From: Planctomycetota bacterium
GTDB lineage: Bacteria; Planctomycetota; UBA1135; GCA-002686595
Direction: 5' to 3'
NCBI GenBank assembly: GCA_014237855.1
Contig: JABACD010000004.1
Location: 186,001 to 250,000, forward strand
DNA length: 64,000 nt
Part shown: piece after piece, positions 44,153 through 47,959 of the stretch
How the letters are laid out: every line of letters starts with the position of its first letter
How positions within the stretch are numbered: position 1 is the stretch's first letter
Program-made: the position numbers and the translations under genes
The notes under the pieces: model-generated
Seen by the model: the letters and a program-made list of their open reading frames with translations, nothing else
Database searches by the model: none
What the model was told of the DNA's origin: nothing

Positions 44153-45715
44153 TCAGTGCTTTCCGCGAGCTACATCTGCTGGTGAGAGGATCTCATGACC
44201 AGTCGCTGTGTCAATGGAGAGCTGCGCTCCCGTGAGGTCGATCCACTCCTGCATCCTGTCAGCCATCAGGACCACACGCCCCGGTTGCGTCTGAGCCTGA
44301 TCTGTCATTTCGCCCAGGTCTTGGGTGAGGTCGTAGAGTTCGAAGCGCCGCCCTGGATGGAAGTAGATCAGCTTCCAGTCTCCACTCCGGATGGCAGTAA
44401 AGGGCTCTATCCCCGGACCCTTCGCTCCCCATTGGTGGGGCTGGTTCCACCCCAGGGTCCGCGGGGCTAGAGGTGCAGTTCCGGCGAGTAGCTCAGTCAG
44501 GTCCCGGCCATCGACAGCCCTGGTCACCTCTGGTGAGGCTGCTGCCAGTACCGTTGGGAAGAAGTCCTGGCTGATAACTGGTGTGTCATCGCGTACTCCG
44601 GCCCGTGCGACCCCCGGCCATCGAATGACGGTCGGCACGCGGACTCCGCCTTCGTAAGCGGAGCCTTTCCCACTGCGAAGCGGAGCATTGTGGACGTGGG
44701 CTTGACCACCTCGGGCATGAGCTGAAAGACCCCCATTGTCCGAGGAGAAGATCACGAGCGTCTGGTCCGCGATACCCAGGGAGTCCAGCTCCTTCAGGAT
44801 AGCGCCCAGGGCCCGGTCGTAGCTCTCGACCATGGTAGCGTAGGCAGCTTCAGGCCCCTCGAGATCCGGATAGCCCGCAAGCAGCCGTTCGTTGGCCATG
44901 AGTGGTGCGTGGACTGCATAGGGGCAGAAGTTCAGGAAGAAGGGCTGCCCATCCGCATGGGCCGCGCGAAGCTGCGGCAAGACCTCCGCAGTCAGCGCTT
45001 CGGTCAGATAGATTTCCTGACCGTGATACTGCTCCAGCCCAGGCACGTCCCAGACCGTGGGCTTCTCACCGGGATTGCCCTTCCGCCCCGCCACGCTGAA
45101 ATTGTGCCGGCCGTAGTAGCTCGCCGGTCCTCCTGAAGCGTGGCCTGCAATATTCACATCAAAACCAAGATTGCTCGGGTCAGCTCCCGTTGTCGAGTGG
45201 GCCCCGAAGTGTGCCTTGCCAGCGTGAATGGTGCGGTAGCCACTGGCCTGAAGTAGGCCTGCGAGGGTCTCGTCCTCCTGGTTGAGACCATTCATGCGCC
45301 AGGCAGGCGCGGCCAGATCTGCTCGCTTCTTGGAAGTGTCCTGATCCTGATGGAGGGTCCAGTAGGTGATGTGCGTCCGGGCCGGATCCTGACCAGTCAT
45401 GATGCTGGTGCGGGTTGGAGTGCAGACGGGCGCCGCCGCGTAAGCGTTGGTGAACGTGACACCCTCTCGGGCCAGTCGCTCGACGTTGGGAGTGCGGTAG
45501 CGCCGGTTGAATTCCGTCCGGGACGTGTGAAGGGGCAGCGACGTGTCCTGCCAGCCCAGATCGTCGACCAGGAAGAGGACGACATTGGTTGGTCGATCAA
45601 CCGGACGTGATTGGGAGCTCTGGTCTTGGTAACCCTCCGGGACAGTGCAACAACCTGCCTGGAGTGCCCAAAGGACCAGGGCAGGGAGCAGGGGGGCTGG
45701 GAGTCTCAGTCTCAT
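44153..45715 (-). CDS. Lipoprotein sulfatase
   Basis: Removes sulfate esters, probably from marine polysaccharides, at the outside of the cytoplasmic membrane. The 520-residue alkaline-phosphatase-fold protein has VLFLVDDLGW (46-55) with the metal Asp pair, and CTPTR (98-102), in which Cys98 is the residue converted to formylglycine. Later ligands include GIADQTLVIFSSDNGGLSAH with the DN pair. The signal ends LQAGC (18-22), a lipobox, so it is membrane-anchored. The start at 45715 is needed since a longer frame would overlap the divergent argS gene. The C-terminal region has the typical FELYDLTQD element. Confidence 0.92.
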   Translation of the reverse strand: MRLRLPAPLLPALVLWALQAGCCTVPEGYQDQSSQSRPVDRPTNVVLFLVDDLGWQDTSLPLHTSRTEFNRRYRTPNVERLAREGVTFTNAYAAAPVCTPTRTSIMTGQDPARTHITYWTLHQDQDTSKKRADLAAPAWRMNGLNQEDETLAGLLQASGYRTIHAGKAHFGAHSTTGADPSNLGFDVNIAGHASGGPASYYGRHNFSVAGRKGNPGEKPTVWDVPGLEQYHGQEIYLTEALTAEVLPQLRAAHADGQPFFLNFCPYAVHAPLMANERLLAGYPDLEGPEAAYATMVESYDRALGAILKELDSLGIADQTLVIFSSDNGGLSAHARGGQAHVHNAPLRSGKGSAYEGGVRVPTVIRWPGVARAGVRDDTPVISQDFFPTVLAAASPEVTRAVDGRDLTELLAGTAPLAPRTLGWNQPHQWGAKGPGIEPFTAIRSGDWKLIYFHPGRRFELYDLTQDLGEMTDQAQTQPGRVVLMADRMQEWIDLTGAQLSIDTATGHEILSPADVARGKH

Positions 45716-45835
45716 GCTCAAAGGGTCGCGATCGGGGCTGTCAAGGTCAATCGGTGGTTCGGATGAAGAGGCCCAGGTGAAAGCCTTTTTGAGCTTTTCG
45801 GTGGGATCGATCGGAGACTCTGGAACTATACCGAT

Positions 45836-47959
45836 ATGCAGTATCAAGCGCAGATTGCCCAGCTCCTGGCCAGCGTGCTGGGGGACGCCCCCCATGGCCT
45901 GAGTCTTTCTACCGCCGAGCTTGAAGGGTGGCTGGAACGCCCCAAGGACTCGAAGATGGGGGACTTTGCCTTTCCATGCTTTCGCCTGGCCAAGGAGCTT
46001 CGCAAGGCGCCACCCCAGATTGCAGGAGAGCTACTCGCGGCTGTCGAGGGCAAGCTCGACCCTGTCTCCGGGCTGGAGAAGGTGGTTGCCGCTGGACCGT
46101 ATCTGAACTTCTACATCAGCCGTAGCCAGCTGGCTGCAGAGACCCTTCCCGCCATCCTCGCAGGTGACTTCCTGGCGGCCAGGCCTGCCCTCGCGGACAG
46201 GGTGATGGTGGAGTACTCCCAGCCGAACACGCACAAGGCCTTTCATGTCGGCCACATTCGCTGCGCATCCCTGGGCGATTCAGTGGCGCGCATCCTCGAG
46301 TGGTGTGGACATGAGGTGATTCCGGTGAACTACATCGGTGACGAGGGTACCCACGTGGCCAAGTGCTTGTGGCACCTTCAAGAGCACTTCGACGGTCAGT
46401 ACCCCGCCGAAAACCGTGGGGAGTTCCTCGGGGATCAGTACACAAGCGCCACCGACATGCTTGATCTGAGCACCCTGACCCGGGCGCCGCTTCCCGGGGT
46501 CAAGGCCGTGGAGATCAAGACCGTGGAGGTGCATCCGGAGAACCCCAAGTGGTTCGTGTCCACGATCGATGCGAGCGATGGGGAACACACCGTCGTCGTC
46601 GGGGCCGGTGGCTTCAAGGTGGGTGACCTCTGTGCCTGGGCAGCGCCCGGAATGCGGGTGGCCAGCAAGGAGGTCGGGCAGGTCGATCGCAAGGGCGTGC
46701 AGAGCACCGGGATGCTCCTCAGTGAGAAGGAGCTCGGCATCTCTGACAAGGATGACCGCATCGCTGTTCTTCCCACGAAGGCCTCCATCGGTGACGAGGT
46801 GGCCGAGCACTACCTGGTCGATGGCGCCTTGCCGGACGGTGTTTCTGTCATCGAAGAATTCAATCGGCGCTCAAGCGCCGTGAGCGCAGTCCTGCAGGGA
46901 ATTGAGAGTGGCCAAGGAGAGACGTTTGAACTCTGGCAGCTGACCAAGGACTGGTCGATGGAGGAGTTCCAGAGGATTTATGACTGGCTCGGGTGTCGCT
47001 TCGATCACGTCTTCTTCGAGTCCGAACTTGGAGAGCCCTCCAAGGCTCTGGTCCGCGAGCATCAGAAGTCAGGCATCTTCATCCAGTCCGAGGGGGCTGT
47101 AGGGGCTGACCTCGCGGAATACGACCTGGGCTTTTGCGTGTTGATCAAGCGAGACGGGACAGCGCTCTATGCCACGCGTGATCTGGCCCTGGCGAAGCGC
47201 AAGTTTGAGGAATTCGGTGTGGACCGGTCGCTCTACGTCGTCGACTCTGCTCAATCACTTCACTTCCAACAGGTCTTCAAGTGCCTCGAGCTGATGGGGT
47301 ACGCGCAGGCATCCAAGTGCGAGCACCTCCCCTATGGTCAGGTGGTTCTTCCTGATGGGAAGATGAGCAGTCGCAAGGGCAATGTGATCCTCTTCTCTCA
47401 GCTTGAAGCTCGCCTCCTGGAGAAGATTCATTCCGAGTTCCTCGACAAGTACGTTGGCGACTGGGAACAGTCGGAGATCGATCAAGCGGCGCACCTGATC
47501 GCCATGGCAACCATGCGTTATGGGATGCTGAATCAGGTGCACAACTCCAAGATCGTATTTGACCTTGACGAGTGGAGCGCTCGTACCGGAAATACAGGGC
47601 CCTACCTGCTCTATGCCTACGCTCGGACGCGGTCCATATTGCGGGAGGTGGGGCAAATCGACACATCCGTGGTGGACTGGTCCCTGCTGACGCACGAGAC
47701 CGAAACGGACCTTCTCGGCTTCCTGGCGGACTACCAGCGATACATCGAGCGAGCCGCGGAGGCGCTCTTGCCACAAATCCTGTGCGCGTACGTGTATGAT
47801 CTGTCAAAGAAATTCAGCCGCATGTACAAGGAGTGCTCGGTGCTCCACGCTGAGACTGAAGCGCTCAAGGCCACCCGTCTTCAGCTGATCGATGCCACCG
47901 GGCGGGTGATTCAGCACGCGCTTGGTTTGCTCGGCATACGGACAATTGAGAGGATGTAG
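45836..47959 (+). CDS. argS: Arginyl-tRNA synthetase with inserted tRNA-binding OB domain
   Basis: Charges tRNA-Arg; cytoplasmic, essential. The 707 residues exceed the usual 550-600 by one inserted domain. N-terminal Add1 domain 1-115; class I signature HVGH at 137-140 (the HIGH motif); KMSSR at 509-513 (KMSKS motif); DALR-type anticodon-binding domain about 585-707, ending typically in LGIRTIERM. Between the HIGH-motif half (ending about 205) and the EEFNRRSSAVSAVLQGI helix (340-356), residues about 216-328 match the PheT/EMAPII/MetG-C tRNA-binding OB fold: KTVEVHPENPKWFVST, TVVVGAGGFKVGD and GVQSTGMLLSEKELG. Catalytic motifs are intact, so the enzyme should be active. It is divergent from the sulfatase gene, 120 bases apart. 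Confidence 0.95.
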   Translation: MQYQAQIAQLLASVLGDAPHGLSLSTAELEGWLERPKDSKMGDFAFPCFRLAKELRKAPPQIAGELLAAVEGKLDPVSGLEKVVAAGPYLNFYISRSQLAAETLPAILAGDFLAARPALADRVMVEYSQPNTHKAFHVGHIRCASLGDSVARILEWCGHEVIPVNYIGDEGTHVAKCLWHLQEHFDGQYPAENRGEFLGDQYTSATDMLDLSTLTRAPLPGVKAVEIKTVEVHPENPKWFVSTIDASDGEHTVVVGAGGFKVGDLCAWAAPGMRVASKEVGQVDRKGVQSTGMLLSEKELGISDKDDRIAVLPTKASIGDEVAEHYLVDGALPDGVSVIEEFNRRSSAVSAVLQGIESGQGETFELWQLTKDWSMEEFQRIYDWLGCRFDHVFFESELGEPSKALVREHQKSGIFIQSEGAVGADLAEYDLGFCVLIKRDGTALYATRDLALAKRKFEEFGVDRSLYVVDSAQSLHFQQVFKCLELMGYAQASKCEHLPYGQVVLPDGKMSSRKGNVILFSQLEARLLEKIHSEFLDKYVGDWEQSEIDQAAHLIAMATMRYGMLNQVHNSKIVFDLDEWSARTGNTGPYLLYAYARTRSILREVGQIDTSVVDWSLLTHETETDLLGFLADYQRYIERAAEALLPQILCAYVYDLSKKFSRMYKECSVLHAETEALKATRLQLIDATGRVIQHALGLLGIRTIERM
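46481..46819 (+). other. tRNA-binding OB-fold domain inserted in ArgRS
   Basis: Residues about 216-328 of ArgRS. The block order (VEVHP start, Gly-Ala-Gly loop, GDL, Gly-Val-x-Ser-x-Gly-Met-Leu, Lys-Glu-Leu-Gly) is that of the PheT N-terminal and EMAPII-type domains. The reading frame and codon use continue without a break, so it is a real insertion and not a frameshift artefact. Confidence 0.85.

Follow-up and report, generated by a model that had tools for sequence, protein, structure and literature searches.

What is an additional domain doing in the middle of the catalytic domain of a bacterial arginyl-tRNA synthetase (ArgRS), and how did it get there? The question is raised by the argS gene in a stretch of 64,000 nt from a Planctomycetota genome (contig JABACD010000004.1, here called the window). 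A sequence-only reading of this stretch had recognised an OB domain of the PheT/EMAPII type that separates the HIGH-motif half of the ArgRS catalytic domain from the remainder.

Identity and position of the insert

The features of the gene are listed in Table 1. As had been described, the HVGH and KMSSR motifs are intact and the frame of 707 codons is continuous. The protein matches the NCBIfam model argS (TIGR00456) with 392.5 bits (cut-off 261.65) and has, besides both synthetase motifs, the N-terminal (PF03485) and anticodon-binding (PF05746) domains. The tRNA_bind domain (PF01588) falls between two tRNA-synt_1d stretches, of which the second is the better match. No second argS was found in the source genome (94% complete), making this the sole ArgRS found there. 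Read in its longest ORF (44153-45895, minus strand), a divergent sulfatase gene shares 60 bases with the start of argS (45836-45895); the sulfatase gene probably has a later start than this ORF.

Table 1 Features of argS and of the encoded ArgRS (positions refer to the window)
Feature	Position	Strand	Basis
argS, 707 aa	45836..47959	+	Frame, Pfam, NCBIfam
Arg_tRNA_synt_N, tRNA D-loop-recognition domain, residues 6-94	45851..46117	+	Pfam
HVGH (HIGH-type) motif, residues 137-140	46244..46255	+	Invariant in 50 homologues
Hairpin helix 1 carrying the insert, residues 194-209	46415..46462	+	AlphaFold model
Inserted segment, residues ~211-336	46466..46843	+	Alignment with non-carriers, which have ~10-25 residues there
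OB core, tRNA_bind, residues 225-320	46508..46795	+	Pfam; model pLDDT ~95
Insert-specific basic residues R274 and K278	46655..46669	+	R/K in 24/25 and 25/25 inserts
tRNA_bind signature GVxSxGM....E, residues 287-299	46694..46732	+	G287, S290, G292 and E299 invariant, 25/25
Hairpin helix 2, residues 338-357	46847..46906	+	AlphaFold model
Remaining catalytic domain, tRNA-synt_1d, residues 352-576	46889..47563	+	Pfam
KMSSR (KMSKS-type) motif, residues 509-513	47360..47374	+	Sequence; homologue alignment
DALR_1, anticodon-binding domain, residues 591-707	47606..47956	+	Pfam

When the insert alone was searched against domain profiles, it was not left without a match: tRNA_bind is hit with 33 bits (27.8 bits in the whole ArgRS) at a cut-off of 27. 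Among the NCBIfam models, the insert corresponds to positions 43-154 of pheT_bact (E=5.2e-15) and more weakly to YtpR (E=3.2e-10), and the top matches in a sequence search of the PDB are PheRS beta chains of known structure. An AlphaFold model of the insert alone is an OB domain with a pLDDT of 94.8. Foldseek places PheRS beta chains first (E=2.4e-7), the YtpR type among them (3bu2, rmsd 1.8), and ranks Arc1p, the C-terminal domain of MetRS and Trbp111 lower. A chance match is excluded because tRNA_bind is matched by 24/25 aligned inserts taken individually (E<=0.01) and the fold prediction agrees.

The place of the insert within the enzyme follows from the Pfam order, from the alignment with non-carriers and from the AlphaFold model of the full protein (pLDDT 93.4; best PDB match the yeast ArgRS-tRNA complex 1f7u). 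This model shows a helical hairpin between the HVGH half and the KMSSR half, with the OB domain at its tip. The nearest non-carriers run from GEWLGxLYTAAT... straight into ...EVSRVLQALESG, with ~10-25 residues where carriers have ~130. The span originally proposed for the OB domain (residues 216-328, 46481-46819) is right for the core, and the extra sequence relative to the closest non-carriers is slightly longer (Table 1). An assembly or frame error as the source of the insert is ruled out by the continuous frame together with the 25 aligned homologous inserts. It is thus confirmed that the insert is an EMAPII/PheT-type OB domain spliced into the catalytic domain of ArgRS.

Distribution and origin of the carrier enzyme

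A scan of a genome collection yielded 24 loci with the insert; the scan patterns favour the carrier ArgRS type, so that inserts which arose independently in ArgRS of another type may have escaped it. The carriers belong to Planctomycetota, Acidobacteriota (Acanthopleuribacterales and related MAGs), Bdellovibrionota and a few further MAGs, including one or more named 'Deltaproteobacteria'. The insert is present in 4/154 genomes of the window's class, in 3/392 genomes sampled across its phylum, in 10/144 Bdellovibrionia genomes and in 1/90 sampled Acidobacteriota. These frequencies rule out that it is an ordinary ArgRS loop of most bacteria. The carrier enzyme is also the sole ArgRS found in Poly30, Acanthopleuribacter pedis and Sulfidibacter corallicola. 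In a Bdellovibrionales MAG (G748; loci L080 and L227), the frame of the carrier ArgRS is broken after ~447 aa.

The alignment of inserts comprised 25 sequences from Planctomycetota, Acidobacteriota and Bdellovibrionota. In an ArgRS tree calculated without the insert columns, the carriers form one clade (support 100/99), and two wider ArgRS trees recover the same clade with a support of 99. Non-carriers from the classes and families to which the carriers belong fall outside it, and carriers of different phyla interleave inside it. The inserts likewise form a single clade (100/100), which groups with PheT B2 and not with MetRS or Trbp-like domains. Similarly, PheT B2 domains score 39-80 bits with a profile built from the inserts, the MetRS/Trbp-like types 14-27 bits. 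Since the host enzymes form one clade and the inserts do as well, a single fusion is concluded for the sampled set, for which the ArgRS trees rule out several independent insertions. No loss of the insert was seen inside the sampled carrier clade. The interleaved phyla and the patchy distribution point to later whole-gene transfer, in which the entire carrier argS probably moved between phyla.

Within one family (genomes G000-G060), the ArgRS types, which include the carrier type, the type of G017, G029 and G031, and others, have 30-41% identity to the window's enzyme in the aligned C-terminal part. This suggests that the essential ArgRS has been replaced repeatedly within that family.

The ArgRS of Thermomicrobia (L089, L090) is extended by ~120 residues at the position of the insert. 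This segment is unrelated in sequence to the insert and has no Pfam match to tRNA_bind, and Thermomicrobia were therefore excluded as further carriers. An unrelated insert in the same hairpin is found in Thermomicrobia and relatives (L089, L090, L091, L093, L099, L100, L102, L105) and also at L094 and L097; the site seems prone to insertion.

Conserved residues and possible roles of the insert

By profile, insert profile, fold and tree, the insert is of the same OB subtype as bacterial PheT B2 and YtpR. The two enzymes differ in where they hold the domain: that of PheT, part of a class II enzyme, is embedded in B1 close to the N-terminus, that of ArgRS in a class I catalytic domain. The residues differ as well. 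Position 274, R or K in all but one of the inserts, is mostly V or K in PheT, and position 278, always R or K in the inserts, is D in most PheT proteins. Conversely, N259, K281 and R286 of PheT (window numbering) are lost in the inserts, and D284-K285 is mostly gained.

Trbp111, Arc1p, EMAPII and the C-terminal domain of MetRS belong to the same Pfam family, but are free-standing or terminal fusions, whereas the ArgRS insert is internal. OB folds of the Trbp/EMAPII kind bind the 3'-CA end of tRNA, and when fused to synthetases they lower the Km for tRNA (PMC11286949). Trbp111 grips the 3'-CA via R75, F78, S82 and M85, with R75 as the strongest contact and F78 as the stacking residue (PMC11286949). 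The equivalent positions in the insert were assigned by motif spacing. S82 corresponds to S290, present in 25/25 inserts, and M85 to M293, present in 19/25. R75 and F78 have no equivalent: they fall on V283 and K286 of the window's insert, and neither column is conserved among the 25 inserts. The 3'-CA pocket of Trbp111 is thus only half kept, with S290 and M293 retained and the R75 and F78 equivalents not.

We propose that the hairpin in the connective region of this sole, predicted functional ArgRS once received, in an ancestor, a PheT-B2/YtpR-like OB domain at its tip, and that the domain would provide an extra, amino-acid-unspecific tRNA contact. Given the place of the OB domain in ArgRS, the contact would most likely lie near the acceptor or 3' end. 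It would raise the effective affinity for tRNA and so assist in loading or release, an effect reported for other synthetases that carry this domain as a fusion (PMC11286949). We assign a probability of roughly 0.58 to such an accessory contact, in which tRNA binding itself is inferred. An added tRNA contact, which the sequence-only reading had put forward, is therefore plausible as far as the S..M signature and the new conserved basic residues go, but the key Trbp111 contacts R75 and F78 are missing. The acidic character of the insert (pI 5.1, net charge -5) also speaks against it; PheT B2 is often acidic too.

The absent R75/F78 contacts and the acidity would suit the main rival, a protein-protein or structural module that serves in dimerisation, in docking to another translation factor or in stabilising the connective hairpin. 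OB folds frequently bind proteins, and a tRNA role of PheT B2, the nearest relative, is not firm: to our knowledge, contact with the cognate tRNA is not established for it in PheRS complexes. The conservation of GVxSxGM and of the new basic residues in 24-25 of the 25 inserts, which is expected of a nucleic-acid face, argues against this, and taken together the three module roles appear possible but rather doubtful.

A more specific form of the proposed tRNA contact is tentative: beside the catalytic centre, the OB domain might capture the tRNA 3' end as a second acceptor-end site. Such a relay could load tRNA before catalysis, or hold and hand over Arg-tRNA afterwards.

It is unlikely that the insert is a neutral passenger that fitted by chance and spread with argS. 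In favour of a passenger, most relatives manage without it, and it evolves faster than the catalytic core, with an amino acid identity to two close homologues of 55-59% compared with 65-79%. In the same comparison, the insert has a dN of 0.39-0.43 (ArgRS core 0.15-0.29) and a dS of 0.86-1.99, which is partly saturated, so that its dN/dS of roughly 0.2-0.5 is approximate. This ratio is nevertheless below 1, and judged from these substitution rates the insert is under purifying selection, weaker than that on the core. The domain is moreover present in every carrier examined over a deep divergence, its signature residues are invariant, and a single origin without loss in the sampled clade is not the pattern of a passenger.

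The sequence-only reading had also considered that the insert replaces an editing or specificity element, which is not favoured. We know of no editing domain in ArgRS that could be replaced. The one point for a substitute tRNA-Arg specificity element, or for a new identity rule, is the position inside the catalytic domain. The D-loop-recognition and anticodon-binding domains are both present, and A20 and C35, which make up the bacterial identity set for arginine (PMC9976931), are retained in each of the four tRNA-Arg genes found (CCG, UCU, CCU, ACG). No altered tRNA-Arg identity was seen in these four genes. With A20 and C35 being ordinary, the insert did not replace the normal specificity system, and either version is very improbable.

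Least probable of all is that PheT passed its own OB domain directly to ArgRS and was left without one: PheT lacks B2 in 9/17 carrier genomes, the B1 sequence there continuing directly, but PheT without B2 is the rule across the 90 sampled Acidobacteriota (nearly all), most of which have no ArgRS insert, and PheT of the Bdellovibrionota carriers, of Poly30 and of the window's genome retains B2. Loss from PheT is rejected as a general cause of the insert by this control and by the carriers that keep B2, and a handover of the domain is, as a general cause, largely refuted. In Acidobacteriota PheT (L165-L173, L188 and the 90-genome sample), B2 is apparently cleanly absent inside B1, and B2 is likewise missing from PheT in two carrier genomes whose names do not place them in Acidobacteriota (L172, L173).

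Significance of an OB domain in a class I catalytic domain

The sequence-only reading knew of no described case inside ArgRS, and the open-access literature searched yielded no report of tRNA_bind within ArgRS. The architecture may already be present, without comment, in domain databases. The OB domain and ArgRS are each known; their combination and the position are new to us. Extra domains between the halves of a class I catalytic domain are known from the CP1 editing domains of IleRS, ValRS and LeuRS. The ArgRS insert has a similar place in the connective region, but a different fold, and no editing is suggested for it.

OB domains of the tRNA-binding type are known from stand-alone proteins, from fusions at protein termini and from PheT. 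In the carrier enzymes, one lies inside a class I catalytic domain, spliced in once and carried by a gene now present in three phyla, and the carrier enzyme is the only ArgRS wherever this was checked. It is a clear case of domain insertion combined with the probable replacement of an essential enzyme across phyla. If the relay were true, a module would have been recruited to the region that houses the editing site in other class I enzymes. The carrier enzymes offer a natural test of whether OB domains of this type act on the tRNA 3' end beside an active site.
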